Source: Halorarum salinum (GTDB lineage: Archaea; Halobacteriota; Halobacteria; Halobacteriales; Haloferacaceae). From it: a DNA stretch of 64,000 bases. Shown here in pieces: positions 54,981 through 64,000 of this stretch (position 1 is the first letter of the stretch; the number at the start of each line of letters is the position of its first letter). The translations under genes were made by a program, and so were the position numbers. The DNA lies in contig NZ_CP058579.1 of the NCBI RefSeq assembly GCF_013402875.1, forward strand, positions 868,001 through 932,000. The letters are read 5' to 3'. The notes beneath the pieces were generated by a model. It was not told the DNA's origin. It ran no database searches and saw only the letters and a program-made list of their open reading frames with translations.

Positions 54981-56651
54981 ATGACAGACCAGGGAACCGC
55001 GAAACCGTCGAGCGAACTGAAGCAACTGGCGATGAAGCGCCCCCACCTCCGGGAGCACCTCCAGAAGTTCAAGCAGATCACCGGGGAGTTCCCGATGTTC
55101 GTCGACGACGTCCATGGCGACCACGAGGCGCGCCGGCCGAACGTGCTCTACCCGGTCGGCGGCCCCATCTTCTGTCACGTGTACGGCGACTTCGGGCAGG
55201 ACACGAAGTACTACGCCGTCGAGCCGACGCTCTCGACCGCCGAGGAGCAGGTGCTGGGCGTCGTCAAGAGCAAACTGCTCAACAAGAGCGGCCACCACCG
55301 GGCGCCGGACGAGGAGTCCGGCTACGACGACCTCATCGAGGAACTGCTGGAGGAGGTCACGGTCATCGCGGAGGAGGGGGGCGAGTACGGCCCGCTCTCG
55401 AAGGTGCTGAACTTCGGCCGGACCGAGGTGTCGCGGGAGACGTACGAGAACATCCGGTACCGGCTGAACCGCGACATCGTCGGCTTCGGCCCGCTGGAGC
55501 CGGTCATGCGCGACCCGGAGAACGAGGACATCCACGTCATCGGGCCCAAAGAGTGTCACGTCGACCACGGCGTCTTCGGGATGATGGAGACGACCGTCGA
55601 CTTCGGGACCCCCAAGCAGTTCGACAACTGGCTGCGCAACATGGGCGAGCGGATGGGCGACCCCGTCTCGGACTCGAACCCCATCGTCGACTCGACGCTC
55701 CCGGACGGGTCGCGTATCAACATCATCTACTCCGACGACGTCTCCATCAAGGGCTCCTCGCTCACCATCCGGCAGGGCGAGGGGACGCCGCTCTCGATCA
55801 ACCAGATCACCAACTGGGGGACGCTGTCGCCGGAACTGGCGGCGTACCTCTGGCTCTGTCTGGAGAACGAGCAGACGGTGTTCGTCGTCGGGGAGACGGC
55901 GTCGGGGAAGACGACGACGCTGAACGCCATCCTCTCGTACATCCCGCGGGACTCGAAGATATACACCGCGGAGGACACCGCCGAGGTCGTCCCCCCGCAC
56001 AACACCTGGCAGCAGCTCCTCACGAGGGAGGGCGACGGCGGCGAGTCGAACGACGTGGACATGTTCGACCTGGTCGCGGCCGCGCTGCGTTCCCGCCCCG
56101 ACTACATCATCGTCGGCGAGGTGCGGGGCGCCGAGGGTCGGATGGCGTTCCAGGCCGCCCAGACCGGCCACCCCGTGATGCTGACGTTCCACGCGTCCGA
56201 CATCGTCTCGATGATCCAGCGGTTCACCTCCGACCCGATCAACGTCCCCGAGACGTTCATGGACGTCGCCGACGTCGCGCTGTTCCAGAACCGCGTGAAG
56301 CAGGGCGACGACGTGCTCCGACGGGTCACCTCCGTCCAGGAGATCGAGGGCTACTCGAAGGAGATGGACGGGGTCGTCACCCGGCAGGTGTTCGACTGGG
56401 ACCCCGTGGAGGACGAGATCGTCTTCCGCGGCATGAACAACTCCTACGTCCTCGAGGAGCAGATCGCGACCCTGCTCGGGTACGCGGACACCCGCGACAT
56501 CTACGACGACCTCTCGTTCCGCGCCGACCTCATCGAGCGGATGATCCAGGAGGGAATCCTCGGCTACCACGAGGTGAACGAGGCCATCACGTCGTTCCAG
56601 CGCGACGGCGTCGACGGGCTCCCGTTCGACATGCACCGCTCCACGAGCTAA
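54981..56651 (+). CDS. arlI: Archaellum motor ATPase ArlI
   Basis: The 556-residue secretion ATPase has Walker A GETASGKTT at residues 304-312, the Asp box and Walker B around PDYIIVGEVRGAEG (about 373-386), and the arginine and His boxes, plus an N-terminal docking domain (RHEHLQKFKQIT-type helices and VRKSGHHRAPDEESGY). It powers both filament assembly and rotation as a hexamer. It starts 17 bases after arlH. Confidence 0.97.
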   Translation: MTDQGTAKPSSELKQLAMKRPHLREHLQKFKQITGEFPMFVDDVHGDHEARRPNVLYPVGGPIFCHVYGDFGQDTKYYAVEPTLSTAEEQVLGVVKSKLLNKSGHHRAPDEESGYDDLIEELLEEVTVIAEEGGEYGPLSKVLNFGRTEVSRETYENIRYRLNRDIVGFGPLEPVMRDPENEDIHVIGPKECHVDHGVFGMMETTVDFGTPKQFDNWLRNMGERMGDPVSDSNPIVDSTLPDGSRINIIYSDDVSIKGSSLTIRQGEGTPLSINQITNWGTLSPELAAYLWLCLENEQTVFVVGETASGKTTTLNAILSYIPRDSKIYTAEDTAEVVPPHNTWQQLLTREGDGGESNDVDMFDLVAAALRSRPDYIIVGEVRGAEGRMAFQAAQTGHPVMLTFHASDIVSMIQRFTSDPINVPETFMDVADVALFQNRVKQGDDVLRRVTSVQEIEGYSKEMDGVVTRQVFDWDPVEDEIVFRGMNNSYVLEEQIATLLGYADTRDIYDDLSFRADLIERMIQEGILGYHEVNEAITSFQRDGVDGLPFDMHRSTS

Positions 56652-56652
56652 C

Positions 56653-58404
56653 ATGAGCACCGGAACCGGCGGCGGCACGTCGACCCTGTTCCCCGACTCG
56701 CTGTCGGACCTGGTGAGGGAGCTGCTCGATTCGTACGACGAACTGGAGATGCCGCGGCGGCAGTACGTCGCGTACGTCCTGCTGCCGGCGCTCGGGTTCC
56801 TCCTGCTCACGCTCGCGGGGGCCGTGCTGTTGCCGTTCCCGCTGTCGGTCCGGGTACCGGTTCCGCTGCTCGGCCTGCTCGTGTTCGGCGCGGCGGTCGC
56901 GTACCCGAAGCTGTACCTCAACGGGCGGAAGGTCGCCATCGAGAACCAGCTCCACCTCGTGATGACCCACATGACCGTGCTCTCGACGACGAACATCGAC
57001 CGGATGGAGGTGTTCCGCACGCTCGCGGGCGAGGAGGAGTACGGCGCCGCCGCCGAGGAACTGGGCCGCATCGTCCACCTGGTGGACACGTGGAACCAGT
57101 CGCTCGACGACGCGCTGCGGCGGCGGGCCAAGGAGGTGCCCTCGGACGCCTTCTCGGACTTCTTCGACCGGCTCGGCTACACCATCGGGGCGGGCCAGTC
57201 GATCGACGAGTTCCTGCTGTCCGAACAGGACGCGGTCATCCAGAACTACATCACGGTGTACGAGGGCGCACTGGGGAACCTGGAGGTGATGAAGGACCTC
57301 TACATGTCGATGATCCTCTCCATGACGTTCGCGCTCGTGTTCGCCATCGTCCTGCCCATCCTGACGGGCGACGACCCCACCGTCACCGTCTCGGCGGTCA
57401 TTGTCATGTTCATGCTGGTCCAGCTCGGCTTCTACGTGATGATCCGGGCGATGGCGCCCCACGACCCGGTGTGGTTCCACTCCGAGCGGGGCGCGCCGAC
57501 GGACCTCCGGCTCTGGGGGAGCCTCGTGGTGGGCGTCGGGCTGACGTTCGTCCTCGTCGCCGTCGTCGGAGCGGGGCTGTTCGGGTACGGCCCGGGCCTG
57601 CCGGGGCTGCTGTTCTTCCTCGACGAGACGCCCGTTCCGCTGTACGTCTGTGTCCCCATCACCCCGATGGCGATCACGGGCGTGATGCTCCGGATCGAGG
57701 AGCGGAACATCGGCGAGCGTGACGAGGAGTTCCCGTCGTTCGTCCGGGCGCTCGGCGCGGCCGAGTCCGCGAAGCAGTCGACGACCGGCGACGTGCTCCG
57801 GACGCTCCACCAGAAGGACTTCGGCGCGCTCTCGCCGGCCATCACGCGGCTGTACCGCCGGCTCAACATCCGAATCGACCCCTCCCAGTCGTGGCACACG
57901 TTCGCCGCGGACACGCGCTCGTACCTCATCCAGAAGTTCTCCGATATGTACCTCGAGGGGCGTCGGATGGGGGGACGGCCGAAGATGCTCGGCGAGCTCA
58001 TCTCCGAGAACATGAACACGGTGATGCAGCTCCGCGAGCAGCGCCGGCAGGCGACCGTGACGATGATCGGTCTGCTGTACGGCATCACCGCGGCCTCCGC
58101 GTTCGCGTTCTTCATCGGCCTGCAGGTCGTCGACATCCTCGCGGACCTCTCCGAGCAGTTCAGCGTCCAGGACGCCGGCGGCGTCGGGCAGATCATCTAC
58201 GCCGGCGTGTACGACATCCCGCTCATCGAGTTCCTCCTGTTGCTCGTCATCCTGTTCAACGCCGTGCTCTCGTCGGTGATGATCCGGACCATCGACGGCG
58301 GCAACAAGGCGAACGCGTACCTCCACTTCGTGGCGATGACGTGGCTGGGCTGCGGGGTGGCGCTGTTCACCCAGCGGCTCGTCACGGAGATACTGACGAT
58401 CTGA
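56653..58404 (+). CDS. arlJ: Archaellum membrane platform protein ArlJ
   Basis: The 583-residue protein has about nine membrane helices, with a large cytosolic loop between residues 290 and 420 (IEERNIGERDEEFPSFVRALGAAESAKQS), typical of ArlJ/TadC-type platforms. It anchors ArlI and guides subunits into the growing filament. It starts 2 bases after arlI and closes the operon. No prepilin peptidase gene is adjacent. Confidence 0.95.
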   Translation: MSTGTGGGTSTLFPDSLSDLVRELLDSYDELEMPRRQYVAYVLLPALGFLLLTLAGAVLLPFPLSVRVPVPLLGLLVFGAAVAYPKLYLNGRKVAIENQLHLVMTHMTVLSTTNIDRMEVFRTLAGEEEYGAAAEELGRIVHLVDTWNQSLDDALRRRAKEVPSDAFSDFFDRLGYTIGAGQSIDEFLLSEQDAVIQNYITVYEGALGNLEVMKDLYMSMILSMTFALVFAIVLPILTGDDPTVTVSAVIVMFMLVQLGFYVMIRAMAPHDPVWFHSERGAPTDLRLWGSLVVGVGLTFVLVAVVGAGLFGYGPGLPGLLFFLDETPVPLYVCVPITPMAITGVMLRIEERNIGERDEEFPSFVRALGAAESAKQSTTGDVLRTLHQKDFGALSPAITRLYRRLNIRIDPSQSWHTFAADTRSYLIQKFSDMYLEGRRMGGRPKMLGELISENMNTVMQLREQRRQATVTMIGLLYGITAASAFAFFIGLQVVDILADLSEQFSVQDAGGVGQIIYAGVYDIPLIEFLLLLVILFNAVLSSVMIRTIDGGNKANAYLHFVAMTWLGCGVALFTQRLVTEILTI

Positions 58405-58685: not shown

Positions 58686-59186
58686 TTACGCATCTTCCGG
58701 GGACAGGAGATAGTCCATGTTCAGGTACTGCGTCATGTCCTGGTTCCGTTCCGTCACGACGATGTAATCCACCTTCTGGACGCTGTCCGCCTCGCGGACG
58801 GTGGTGACCAGTTCATCCACCTTTTCGAGCGAAGGGAGGCTCCCGACGGCGTAGATGTCGTACGTCCCGACGCCACGGGAGACGTGCCAGAACGGCTGCT
58901 CACAGAGGAGGTCGAAGGCTTCGTCCTTGGCATCTTCAGTATCGGCCGTTGAGACGGCCACCCGGAGGATTTCCCAGGAGACCTTTCGCGGATCGACGAG
59001 GAAGAACACGGTCGTTAGCTCGATGATCTTGTCGACCCGGTATCTGACTCCTTCCGAACTCATCTCGTAGCCCAGGTCAGCCAGGGTATCCGTGATCTCG
59101 GAATAGGGGACTCTCGGATTCTCGGCGAGGGTCTGCAGAATCACGCCGTCGATGTCGTCGAACGATTCGAACGTCTGTTTTGCCAT
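58686..59186 (-). CDS. Lrp/AsnC-family transcriptional regulator
   Basis: The 166-residue protein has an N-terminal winged helix (residues 8-70, GVILQTLAENPRVPYSEITDTLADLGYEMSSEGVRYRV) and an AsnC/RAM ligand-binding beta-sandwich over the rest (FLVDPRKVSWEILRVAVSTA, RGVGTYDIYAVG). Such proteins sense amino acids or other small molecules. It is divergent from the peptide ABC operon, and a TATA-like gtttagc lies about 30 nt upstream, so it probably controls that operon and itself. Confidence 0.88.
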   Translation of the reverse strand: MAKQTFESFDDIDGVILQTLAENPRVPYSEITDTLADLGYEMSSEGVRYRVDKIIELTTVFFLVDPRKVSWEILRVAVSTADTEDAKDEAFDLLCEQPFWHVSRGVGTYDIYAVGSLPSLEKVDELVTTVREADSVQKVDYIVVTERNQDMTQYLNMDYLLSPEDA

Positions 59187-59290: not shown

Positions 59291-59402
59291 GAACAACAAG
59301 TGCCTATTTGGGTTTTGGGGAACAATTGTGATTAATCGCCTGTATCGCCAATCGATTTAGCCATCAAAAAGAACCATAAGAATTATTTCAGTAAGCTATA
59401 TG
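59291..59402 (+). promoter_or_regulatory. AT-rich regulatory region of the ABC operon with palindrome and TATA box
   Basis: This unusually AT-rich stretch carries two GAACAA elements 29 nt apart (59291-59296, 59320-59325), a perfect palindrome ACAATTGT (59322-59329) and a TATA-like ctatatg (59396-59402) about 28 nt before the ATG at 59427. The palindrome is a plausible binding site for the divergent Lrp/AsnC protein. Confidence 0.6.
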
Positions 59403-59426
59403 GGGGTGTGGCATTCAGCAACAACC

Positions 59427-61100
59427 ATGCGGAAGACTACCAAAACCCGCAGGGACGTACTGAGAAAAACAGCCGGTGCCGGGAGCGCGGGGATCTCCCT
59501 CGCGCTGGCCGGGTGTGGGGGGTCGGGCGGCGGGAACGGAGGGGGTGGTGGTGCGGGCGACCCGGTCGATCCGATCGAACTCATCGTGACGACGCAAGAC
59601 TACGACCCAGTTCGGTACGAGTTCGGCAACCTCATCGCCGACAACTGGCGGGAACTCGGATTTGAGGTCGAAGTCAACCCGCTGGCGTGGAACTCGATCG
59701 TCGATCAAGCGATGACCCAGCAGGACTTCGACGCGTTCACCCTGAACTGGGCCGGTCGGGCCGAACGGCTCGATCCCGACGTCTTCAGTTACTCGCTGCA
59801 CCACTCCTCACAGACCGACAAGGGGTCGTACAACCACATCAACTACGTGAACTCCGAGTACGACGAGTACGCCGAAACACAACGGGAGACGTACGACGAG
59901 GAGGAACGGCGCGAGGCCGTGATGAAGTGTCAGGAGATCTTCGCCGAGGACCAGCCGCGGACGCCGATCGCGAACCAGACGCAGGCGATGCCCTACCTTG
60001 AGGACCGGTTCGACGAGGTCGTGAACATGATGGGAGAGGGGTTGATGTCCTTCTGGACGGCGGTCGACTCGGTCCCGGCCGACGGGGTCGAGCAAATCAG
60101 CCTCGGCTACCCGTCCGACGTCAACAACCTGAACCCGGTCGACGGGGCGGCGACCCACGACACGCAGACGATGCGGCTGATCTACGACAAACTCGTCCGG
60201 ATCGACAGGGACGGCACCACCCGCAACTGGCTCGCAGAAGAGATCGAGGAGGTCGACGACACGACGATCAGGGCCACGATCCGGGAGGGAGAACAGTGGC
60301 ACGACGGGGAGGATCTGACGATCGAGGACGTGAAGTTCTCCTTCGACTACCTGGGTGAACACTCGTCCGTCCTCGGTGGATTCATCGACACCCTCGAGTC
60401 GACCGAGATCGTCGACGATCGAACGGTCGAGTTCTCGTTCGAGGAGCCGTTCGCGCCGTTCATCCCGATCGGTCTCGGGCAGGTGTTCATCATCCCGCAA
60501 CACATCTGGGAGGGGGTCCCCGACGACCTCGACGGCGTCTCGGAACCCGTCGAGTGGGAGAACCCCGAACCCGTCGGCAGCGGGCCGTTCAAGTTCGTCG
60601 AGTGGAACCGCGACGAGCAGATGACCCTCGAAGCGAACGAGGATCACTTCAACCCGCCAAACATCCAGGAGCTCATCAAGGTCCCGGGCGCCGACATGCA
60701 GAGTCTAGTGCGACTCGTCGAGGACGAGTCGCTCGACATGATCGGATGGGTCGCGGGTCCCGACACGGTCAACCGCCTCGACTCCGAGGTCGATCACGTC
60801 GGCATCAGTTCGATCGACAGCCACGGGTGGTACCACATCAACTACCAGCTCGACCGCGCCCCGTTCGACGACGTCGCCGTCAGGCATGCCCTCGCGGACG
60901 CGATTCCGAAACAGGACATCGTCGACATCGTGATGGACGGGATGGCGTCCGTGGCTCACACGTTCATGGCGGAGGTCAACGAGTTCTGGCACAACCCGGA
61001 CGTGATGGAGTTCGGGGACGACATAGAGGGAGCGCAGGCGACGCTCGAGGAGGCGGGCTACACGCTCCAGAATGGCCGACTCTACTACCCGGAGGAGTAG
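59427..61100 (+). CDS. Peptide/oligopeptide ABC substrate-binding lipoprotein, apparently circularly permuted
   Basis: The 557-residue lipoprotein has a twin-arginine signal (TRRDVLRKTAGAGSAG) and lipobox LAGC with Cys30, then a Gly-rich linker. Residues 50-212 (ELIVTTQDYDPVRYEFGNLI, NWAGRAERLDPDVFSYSL, SEYDEYAE) match the C-terminal lobe of family-5 binding proteins. Residues 222-557 (QISLGYPSDVNNLNPVDGAA, WHDGEDLTIEDVKFSF, GSGPFKFVEWNRD, DAIPKQDIVDIVMDGM, ending EEAGY) match the usual N-terminal and middle parts. The order is therefore swapped. The TATA box favours ATG 59427 over 59400. It heads the operon; substrate inferred as peptides. Confidence 0.88.
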   Translation: MRKTTKTRRDVLRKTAGAGSAGISLALAGCGGSGGGNGGGGGAGDPVDPIELIVTTQDYDPVRYEFGNLIADNWRELGFEVEVNPLAWNSIVDQAMTQQDFDAFTLNWAGRAERLDPDVFSYSLHHSSQTDKGSYNHINYVNSEYDEYAETQRETYDEEERREAVMKCQEIFAEDQPRTPIANQTQAMPYLEDRFDEVVNMMGEGLMSFWTAVDSVPADGVEQISLGYPSDVNNLNPVDGAATHDTQTMRLIYDKLVRIDRDGTTRNWLAEEIEEVDDTTIRATIREGEQWHDGEDLTIEDVKFSFDYLGEHSSVLGGFIDTLESTEIVDDRTVEFSFEEPFAPFIPIGLGQVFIIPQHIWEGVPDDLDGVSEPVEWENPEPVGSGPFKFVEWNRDEQMTLEANEDHFNPPNIQELIKVPGADMQSLVRLVEDESLDMIGWVAGPDTVNRLDSEVDHVGISSIDSHGWYHINYQLDRAPFDDVAVRHALADAIPKQDIVDIVMDGMASVAHTFMAEVNEFWHNPDVMEFGDDIEGAQATLEEAGYTLQNGRLYYPEE

Positions 61101-61208: not shown

Positions 61209-62186
61209 ATGGGGCTCCAGGAGTTCGTCGTTCGACGCATCGCCCAGTTGATCTTCACGTTCTGGGTGTTCGTCACCATCCTCTTCGTCCTGTTCAGGGC
61301 GGCGCCGGGGGACCCGACCTCGATGTTCGTCGGGCAGGGGATGTCCGCGGAGGCACGCGAAGAGACGATACAGCGCCTCGGCCTGAACGAACCGCTCCAC
61401 GTGCAGTACTTCGACTACATGGGCCAGTTGCTGACGGGGAACTTCGGGACCTCCTTCCGGTACAACGAACCGGTCTGGGACATCCTCGTCGTGAAGTTCT
61501 GGAACACCATCATTCTGATGGGGTCAGCGCTGGTGCTCGCGTACGTGCTCGGCGTCACGTTCGGCGCCCTGCTGGGGTGGTATCGGGGAACGTCGTTCGA
61601 ACGCGGCGGGATCATCGTCGCGCTGATGGCCCGCTCCTCGCCGGAGTTCTGGACGGGAATCATCGTGCTTTCGATCTTCTCGTTCTGGCTCGGCGTGTTC
61701 CCCTCCGGGGGGATGCGTTCCATCGGAGTGGAGACCACGAGTTTCGCGGGGAGGTACCTCGCCTGGGACTTCGTCTACCACATGGTCCTCCCGATGCTGG
61801 CGGGCGCCATCTACTACATGGCGACGCCGATGCTGCTGATGCGGAACACGATGCTGGACGTGCTGAAAGCCGACTTCATCGAGATCAAGAAGGCGGAGGG
61901 ACTCCCCGAGAGTCAGGTCCTGTTCCGGCACGCGGCCAGGAACTCGGTGCTGCCGCTGGTCACCGTCATGGCGCTCGTATCGGGAACCGCGATCGGCGGC
62001 TCCCTGGTCATCGAGACGGTGTTCAACTGGCCGGGGATGGGGCGGGAGATGGTCCAGTCCATCAACTACAACGACTACCCCGTCGCCATGGGGTCGTTCT
62101 TCCTCATGGGGTCGGTGGTCATCGTCATGAACTTCCTGGCCGACCTGGCGTACGGCTTCCTCGATCCACGGGTGCAGTATGATTGA
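61209..62186 (+). CDS. Peptide ABC transporter permease (DppB-like)
   Basis: The 325-residue permease begins MGLQEFVVRRIAQLIFTFWVF, with the classic Arg-rich first helix and long periplasmic loop (RAAPGDPTSMFVGQGMSAEAR, then LGLNEPLHVQYFDYM), and the EAA loop EIKKAEGLPESQVLFRHAARNSVLP that contacts the ATPase. About six helices. It follows the binding protein by 108 bases and precedes a DppC-like gene by 65 bases. Confidence 0.93.
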   Translation: MGLQEFVVRRIAQLIFTFWVFVTILFVLFRAAPGDPTSMFVGQGMSAEAREETIQRLGLNEPLHVQYFDYMGQLLTGNFGTSFRYNEPVWDILVVKFWNTIILMGSALVLAYVLGVTFGALLGWYRGTSFERGGIIVALMARSSPEFWTGIIVLSIFSFWLGVFPSGGMRSIGVETTSFAGRYLAWDFVYHMVLPMLAGAIYYMATPMLLMRNTMLDVLKADFIEIKKAEGLPESQVLFRHAARNSVLPLVTVMALVSGTAIGGSLVIETVFNWPGMGREMVQSINYNDYPVAMGSFFLMGSVVIVMNFLADLAYGFLDPRVQYD

Positions 62187-62251: not shown

Positions 62252-63196
62252 ATGGGAACTGACGATGGACGGGCCGAGCTCCCGGACTCACTCTCCGGCG
62301 GTGCTGGAGGGTTGACGTCGACCGAGCGGCTCGTCAAGCAGGTGTCCGGCATCGTCGGGGTGCTGTGGAACAACCGGATGGGACAGGCCGGCGTGGGCAT
62401 CCTCTTCGTCTTCGTACTGCTCGGGGTGTTCGGCCCGTACCTCGCTCCACACGACCCGACCGTGATCAACCGCGCCAGCGACGGCTCGGCGCTTCGGCTC
62501 GCGGAGCCGTCCCTCACCCATCCACTGGGAACGACGAACCTGGGGCGCGACGTCGCATCGCAGGTGATCCTGGGCGCTCGAGTGTCGCTACTCATCGGGT
62601 TCTTCGCGGCGTTCATCGCCGTGTTCATCGGCCTGAACATCGGCCTCGTCAGCGGATACTTCGGCGGCTGGGTGGACGACGGGCTGATGCGCCTCACGGA
62701 CATCGCCTACGGGCTTCCGTTCCTCCCGTTCGTCCTCGTCCTGGTGTTCCTGCTGGGGCCGAGTCTCAGGAGCATTGCCATCGTCATCAGCCTGCTCCTC
62801 TGGCGCTCGACCGCCCGCGTGATCCGATCGCAGGTTCTCAGTCACAAACAGCGCCCGTACGTCGAGTCGGCGCGGGCCATCGGCGCGAGTGACTTCCGGA
62901 TCATGTACTATCACATCCTCCCGAACGTTCTCCCGCTCGCGTTCCTCTACGGTTCGTTTTCGGTGGCGTGGGCGGTGATCGGGGAGGCGAGCATCTCGTT
63001 CCTGGGGTTCGGCGACCCCACCATGACGTCGTGGGGACAGATGCTCTTCGACGCCTACAGCGCCGGCGCCATCCGGTTCGCGTGGTGGTGGGTAGCGCCA
63101 CCCGGGATCTGTATCATGCTGATGGTGATGTCCGTGTTCTTCATCGGACGTGCGCTCGAGCAGGTGACTAACCCAGAACTCCGCCATTCCGAGTAG
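62252..63196 (+). CDS. Peptide ABC transporter permease (DppC-like)
   Basis: The 314-residue permease starts with a cytosolic leader, then WNNRMGQAGVGILFVFVLLGVFGPYLAPHDPT, the typical DppC opening, HPLGTTNLGRDVASQVILGARVSL and the EAA loop YVESARAIGASDFRIMYYHILPNVLP. The motif PHDPT and HPLGTT pair is diagnostic of the family. About six helices. Confidence 0.94.
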   Translation: MGTDDGRAELPDSLSGGAGGLTSTERLVKQVSGIVGVLWNNRMGQAGVGILFVFVLLGVFGPYLAPHDPTVINRASDGSALRLAEPSLTHPLGTTNLGRDVASQVILGARVSLLIGFFAAFIAVFIGLNIGLVSGYFGGWVDDGLMRLTDIAYGLPFLPFVLVLVFLLGPSLRSIAIVISLLLWRSTARVIRSQVLSHKQRPYVESARAIGASDFRIMYYHILPNVLPLAFLYGSFSVAWAVIGEASISFLGFGDPTMTSWGQMLFDAYSAGAIRFAWWWVAPPGICIMLMVMSVFFIGRALEQVTNPELRHSE

Positions 63197-63313: not shown

Positions 63314-64000
63314 ATGACGCTGATACGACTCGACGGACTGAAGACGTACTACCGTACGGAGGAGGGGGACGTCGCTGCGGCGGACGGCGTGTCGCTGTCG
63401 GTGTCTCCCAACGAGACGTTGGGACTCGTCGGCGAAAGCGGCAGCGGAAAGACGACCGTCGCCAAGTCGATCATCCGACTCCTCCCCGACAACGGGGAGA
63501 TCGTCGACGGAACGATCGAGTATCGGGACGAGAACGTCACGGAAATGTCGATGAAGGAGGTGCGACGGAACCTCCGCTGGAAGGAGATCTCGATGATCCC
63601 GCAGAACGCGATGAACGGGTTCGACCCCGTCCAAACCGTCTGCGATCAGATCGTCGAGGCGATCCGGGCGCACGAACCGGACACCTCCCGAGCCGAGGCC
63701 CGTTCGCGGGCCGAGGACCTGTTCGAGGAACTCGGACTCGACGCGGAGCGGATCGACGACTACCCCCACCAGTTCTCGGGCGGGATGGCCCAGCGGGCGA
63801 TGATCGCGCTCGCGCTGGCGGTCAGCCCCTCGGTCGTCCTCGCGGACGAACCGACGACCGCACTGGACGTGGTGATCCAGGACCGAATCCTGGGGACCAT
63901 CTCGGACCTCCAGGAGGAGTACGACACCGCGATGATACTGATCACCCACGACATGTCCGTCGTCTCGGAAACCTGCGACAGGATCGCGGTTATGTACGGC
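63314..64000 (+). CDS. Peptide ABC transporter ATP-binding protein (DppD-like), 3' truncated by window end
   Basis: The 229 visible residues contain Walker A GESGSGKTT (40-48), Q-loop SMIPQNAMNGF, the signature DYPHQFSGGMAQRAMI, Walker B SVVLADEPTTALDVV and the switch His in ILITHDMSVV. These are the hallmarks of DppD/OppD. The C-terminal solute-binding-specific tail and stop lie beyond the window. It follows dppC by 117 bases; a DppF partner is expected next. Start at ATG 63314 gives MTLIRLDGLKTYYRTEEGDV. Confidence 0.93.
   Translation, partial: MTLIRLDGLKTYYRTEEGDVAAADGVSLSVSPNETLGLVGESGSGKTTVAKSIIRLLPDNGEIVDGTIEYRDENVTEMSMKEVRRNLRWKEISMIPQNAMNGFDPVQTVCDQIVEAIRAHEPDTSRAEARSRAEDLFEELGLDAERIDDYPHQFSGGMAQRAMIALALAVSPSVVLADEPTTALDVVIQDRILGTISDLQEEYDTAMILITHDMSVVSETCDRIAVMYG

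Follow-up and report, generated by a model that had tools for sequence, protein, structure and literature searches.

Few nutrient receptors are commoner than the family-5 solute-binding proteins (SBPs), and the order of their chain is assumed to be fixed. One gene in the 64,000-nucleotide stretch of Halorarum salinum DNA analysed here (the window) raises the question of whether such a protein can carry its segments in another order, as a preliminary description had read its product as a true circular permutation rather than an assembly join. Sequence, structure model and the order seen in many independent genomes agree with that reading, and the permutation event is ancient, not particular to the window gene. 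Taken as a whole, the evidence is best explained by an ancient, conserved, two-lobed family-5 permutant, most likely the receptor of an OppBCDF-type importer, an account that we regard as very probable.

Exchanged blocks in a family-5 binding protein

The gene occupies one continuous frame, as had been noted, within which the ATG at 59427 is the likelier start, yielding a protein of 557 residues numbered as in the preliminary description (Table 1). A twin-arginine motif (TRRDVLRK) and a lipobox (LALAGC) mark it as a putative Tat lipoprotein, the signal preceding block X at the new N-terminus, where it had been placed; haloarchaeal orthologues bear a signal peptide of the same type, as read from their sequences.

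Table 1. Features of the permuted binding-protein gene and its operon (window coordinates)
Feature	Position	Strand	Basis or remark
ORF of permuted family-5 SBP	59400..61100	+	566 aa from first ATG (59400); uninterrupted frame
Predicted Tat-type signal peptide with lipobox (MRKTTKTRRDVLRKTAGAGSAGISLALAGC) at new N-terminus	59427..59516	+	sequence; Cys30 is the predicted lipidation site
Gly-rich spacer behind predicted lipid anchor	59517..59555	+	sequence; within low-confidence model residues 1-39
Block X, C-terminal in ordinary family-5 proteins	59556..60056	+	AppA 356-491; PF00496 290-366 and beyond
Linker of 13 residues, old C-terminus to old N-terminus	60057..60095	+	model pLDDT >90
Block Y, N-terminal plus central part of ordinary family-5 proteins	60096..61097	+	AppA 17-358; PF00496 3-285
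New C-terminus, loop past EAGY helix	61056..61097	+	identical cut in all type-1 permuted relatives
OppB/DppB-type permease	61209..62186	+	PF00528 + PF19300
OppC/DppC-type permease	62252..63196	+	PF00528 + PF12911
OppD-type ATPase, truncated by window end	63314..64000	+	PF00005 + PF08352 (on L079)
Divergent Lrp/AsnC-type regulator	58686..59186	-	orthologue annotated Lrp/AsnC; HTH_AsnC in L232 counterpart

The window protein matches PF00496 (SBP family 5, cluster C) in two stretches (2e-64; 218.4 bits, cut-off 32.4). When the blocks are scanned separately, X matches positions 290-366 of the 368-position model (1.8e-9) and Y positions 3-285 (1.1e-53), both above the cut-off, so that the cut points are complementary and do not overlap, as had been proposed. 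The best PDB match found by phmmer, AppA (1xoc), is likewise covered in two stretches of exchanged order: in the numbering of the 566-residue ORF, query 234-559 aligns to AppA 28-349 (i-E 2.7e-26) and query 65-198 to AppA 366-496 (i-E 1.9e-8), and the swap is seen with templates 8efz and 5isu as well. At the loop past the EAGY helix, where ordinary members continue into block X, the window protein stops. The canonical linear segment order of SBP family 5 is therefore absent; two homologous segments are exchanged at complementary cuts, the hallmark of a circular permutant, which assigns the protein to a permuted subfamily rather than to the ordinary members of family 5. The swapped order is thus confirmed: every motif quoted in the preliminary description is present, and its assignment of residues 50-212 to the normally C-terminal segment, and of residues 222-557 to the normal beginning and middle, agrees with the PF00496 and AppA ranges of X and Y.

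An AlphaFold2 model, built from a 14-row alignment of permuted relatives, covers the whole protein with a mean pLDDT of 88.5 and a pTM of 0.85, residues 1-39 being its sole disordered part. Aligners that respect sequence order (Foldseek, VIA-align) pair only model residues 217-557 with known structures, at TM-scores near 0.5; this stretch superposes on AppA 17-358 (Z 25.2) and DppA 1-345 (Z 22.8). Block X modelled alone (pLDDT 68.5, a middling confidence) superposes 135 residues on AppA 356-491 at 2.1 A (Z 10.7) and also matches DppA 339-480 (Z 10.2). Taken together, these two alignments account for the template a single time and in swapped order, and the window protein is accordingly predicted to take the usual two-lobed family-5 fold. 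The two observations that had been named as counter-evidence were not made: there is no end-to-end standard alignment to unpermuted DppA, and residues 50-212 align to the C-terminal part of AppA rather than resembling the N-terminal lobe. The new termini lie in what we take, from the domain assignment of DppA, to be a loop of lobe II.

Since the blocks score separately and sequential aligners pair Y alone, X and Y might be regarded as leftovers of two proteins, with Y functioning without a C-terminal part and X serving as an extra domain; however, the two match, on the same templates, parts that complement each other without overlap, are modelled as one compact fold (at the pTM given above), and meet at a junction of constant length, which makes this reading very unlikely. 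In nearly all relatives the linker across the old ends has a length of 13 residues, the full range being 11-16, and orthologues in other haloarchaeal genomes (77-87% identical), and one on Halalkalicoccus jeotgali plasmid 2 (∼80% identity), retain the X-then-Y order independently, as a circular permutant should; together, the retained order and the near-constant linker show that no assembly join is involved. Although binding-protein genes are frequently multicopy and a join can preserve the frame, the mistaken fusion of two adjacent genes by assembly or annotation has a negligible probability, being already refuted by these orthologues and countered by an order, cut and linker identical in many independent genomes and plasmids, by the single unbroken frame, and by a GC3 that is even over the blocks (0.865 and 0.898). 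The window protein is thus supported as a true circular permutation of a family-5 SBP.

Distribution of two permuted orders

Rather than the single odd gene of the preliminary description, the window protein belongs to a large, conserved family, and the search of haloarchaeal genomes suggested there found proteins with the same order widely. Scanning genome contigs with a single sequence gave no match, whereas scanning with an alignment did. At least 35 of 61 haloarchaeal genomes contain a match spanning both blocks, and 121 of ∼254 family ORFs in the fetched loci, which are partly redundant, have the X-then-Y order. The window's own genome harbors at least four permuted genes (further paralogues at L002, L003 and L004/L010) along with several paralogues of ordinary order (e.g. 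L007 and L008).

The order and cut of the window protein (type 1) recur in haloarchaea, Thermoproteota, Pseudomonadota, Bacillota, Atribacterota and Thermodesulfobacteriota, several of these represented by MAGs only. Profile classification of ORFs places type 1 on alphaproteobacterial plasmids (Nitratireductor, Microvirga, Neorhizobium, Roseomonas, Ketogulonicigenium, Maritalea), and also in Marinibacterium, Lentibacter, Roseibium, Brevibacillus reuszeri and Desulfurococcaceae archaeon AG1. It is further found in MAGs, whose names may be wrong, labelled Desulfobacteraceae, Desulfobacterales, Clostridiales and Atribacteria, as well as Acidiferrobacteraceae, Micromonosporaceae, Gammaproteobacteria and ANGP1. 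In surveys with even sampling of larger groups, a clear type-1 match occurred in 11 of 289 genomes when the class of Marinibacterium was sampled and in 6 of 249 for the phylum of Brevibacillus; type 1 is, by these counts, frequent in haloarchaea and sporadic outside them. Plasmid matches that came in two pieces in Cytobacillus and Cetobacterium gave the appearance of permutation when tabulated, but proved to be of ordinary order. On Neorhizobium galegae plasmid pNgVX (L070:5929-7582), the permuted gene is annotated as a hypothetical protein plus a binding protein, probably through a frameshift or sequencing error, as it is one piece in other strains.

A Synergistaceae protein (L132:6476-8326) is cut differently (type 2), its signal peptide being followed by Y(193-308), X and Y(5-192) as matched; the type-2 order as a whole reads Y193-340, X, Y1-192. 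Homologues collinear with it over nearly the full length are present in 27 of 83 Synergistaceae genomes, and all 20 Synergistaceae loci fetched (L193-L212) show the type-2 order. Eight Thermoproteota loci (L214, L215, L223-L228) combine the type-2 cut with a C-terminal extension that ends in a transmembrane segment.

Reasons for and number of permutations

Export signals differ over the family: haloarchaeal permuted SBPs have a Tat lipoprotein signal and those of Brevibacillus a lipobox, alphaproteobacterial and Synergistaceae proteins have a non-lipidated Sec or Tat signal, and the type-2 Thermoproteota have their membrane anchor at the C-terminus. The authors of the TpMglB-2 study put forward surface tethering for that permuted protein (PMC4990184), and the family-5 permutation might similarly be an adaptation that shifts the anchor to the other lobe. 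Lipid or transmembrane anchors in haloarchaeal, Brevibacillus, Clostridiales-MAG and Thermoproteota members are in keeping with this idea, but in members from alphaproteobacteria, Desulfobacterota and Synergistaceae neither a lipobox nor a membrane anchor could be recognised, and the type-2 Thermoproteota are anchored at the opposite end. Tethering is therefore rather unlikely as an explanation and, given the varied signals, cannot be the general reason. In the simplest view the permutation was fixed near-neutrally, which the closeness of the old ends in the fold would allow. Duplication followed by loss, the route proposed in the preliminary description, is the textbook one to circular permutation (PMC3320104); a duplicated intermediate sought among ∼250 family ORFs was not found. 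The very long ORFs considered as candidates (L028, L033, L236-L240) either just extend into open frame upstream of the gene, where the DNA is GC-rich, or are of ordinary order.

For phylogenetic analysis, all proteins were rearranged to the canonical order before tree building. The type-1 proteins first sampled fall on one side of one branch in a 104-row tree (aLRT 94) and again in a 66-row tree (35 rows, 91/81). With Thermoproteota added, a main type-1 set of 18 rows, including the window protein, forms a clade (98/95), and the type-2 Thermoproteota group with the Synergistaceae proteins (98/98); five Thermoproteota proteins of type-1 order (L213, L178, L217, L219, L229) lie outside the main clade. 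For groups picked after seeing the tree, a single clade of all type-1 rows is rejected (p-AU 0.0003), mainly because of L213, which is itself rejected from the main clade (p-AU 5.6e-7), while L178 (p-AU 0.43) and L217/L219 (0.23) are not individually rejected. Deep branches are long, and support for the wider clade is moderate.

Two independent permutation events are well supported, and L213 may represent a further, third one. We advance as a tentative proposal, with appreciable but minority weight, that archaea and bacteria hold the products of three or more permutations of the family at two different loops: main type 1, a type 1 like L213, and type 2. If true, the fold would provide a natural series on chain order versus export, folding and docking, in which permuted forms would dock or be anchored via a different lobe. 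A single permutation ancestral to types 1 and 2 would fit the identical loop cut of all type-1 proteins and the one clade formed by the main set, but type 2 is cut elsewhere and forms a separate clade, and the all-type-1 clade is rejected, chiefly through L213; we consider this alternative improbable. A permuted branch common to archaea and bacteria, together with a second cut, indicates that the fold tolerates moved ends, and, as permuted and ordinary paralogues coexist in one genome, a culturable host offers a direct test of what chain order does to export, folding and docking to the transporter.

Operon context and comparison with known systems

The permuted gene is the first of an operon with OppB-, OppC-, OppD- and OppF-type partners, whose two permeases contain the Pfam domains of normal OppB/DppB and OppC/DppC proteins, as the preliminary description had it. 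Past the window end follow OppF and, at L079:7418-11099, genes for an amidohydrolase of the creatininase family, an M20 hydrolase and two proteins with a metallo-beta-lactamase fold; Halalkalicoccus and other haloarchaea have conserved the first two of these four. A Pfam scan of the window's own copy of the divergent Lrp/AsnC-type gene gave no match; judged by its sequence relatives, this gene likely regulates the operon. At 54981-58404, near the locus, the window also holds a secretion-type ATPase and a membrane protein that, as read from the sequence, have the look of an archaeal type IV pilus pair (PilB/PilC-like).

OppBCDF-type partners also stand beside the permuted gene in Halalkalicoccus and alphaproteobacteria, and bacterial permuted genes with such partners are often accompanied by M28 or M20 peptidases, or by hydantoinase/oxoprolinase. 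Comparison of neighbourhoods shows that M28, M20, hydantoinase, racemase, creatininase and gamma-glutamyltranspeptidase recur near permuted genes in some lineages, with no single neighbouring enzyme common to all. Family and operon suggest that the window protein is most likely a lipoprotein exported by the Tat route that serves an OppBCDF-type importer as an ordinary receptor. Block X stands first behind the Tat lipoprotein signal, followed by the fixed linker over the old termini and then by Y, and the predicted two-lobed protein would serve at the cell surface as receptor for the importer encoded downstream. Our guess at its substrate is a weak one, since neighbouring enzymes vary by lineage (M28, hydantoinase, none): the receptor might catch a small peptide- or amide-like compound, to be processed by the co-encoded creatininase-family and M20 hydrolases.

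Annotation passes permuted forms as ordinary binding proteins, and NCBIfam has no model that fits them. No report of permuted family-5 binding proteins was found in the open-access literature searched, and the main text of CIRPIN (PMC12667903) does not refer to solute-binding proteins or transporters; the family-5 case thus appears to be new, while permuted SBPs are already known in cluster B and among betaine binders. TpMglB-2 (Tp0684) of Treponema pallidum, a permuted glucose-binding protein, is like the window protein a natural circular permutant and an ABC-importer binding protein, has a lipid anchor (predicted for the window protein), and is conserved in a set of bacteria; in contrast to it, TpMglB-2 is a type I/cluster B sugar binder of unrelated sequence, in which only the last strands of one lobe have moved, and its form is reported from spirochaetes and Gram-positives, not archaea (PMC4990184). 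The CPSARST paper describes glycine betaine-binding proteins related by circular permutation, citing the OpuAC and ProX structures; these share with the window protein a permutation in ABC-importer binding proteins of type II fold, but are smaller, belong to another family without family-5 overlap, and were found by structure only (PMC2395249). Closest in sequence are the ordinary cluster C proteins AppA of Bacillus subtilis (1xoc), DppA, OppA and NikA, which have in common with the window protein the Pfam family, OppBCDF-type operon partners and, as modelled, the two-lobed fold, whereas in the window protein the blocks are swapped, the new termini lie in a loop assigned to lobe II, and the old termini are bridged by 13 residues.
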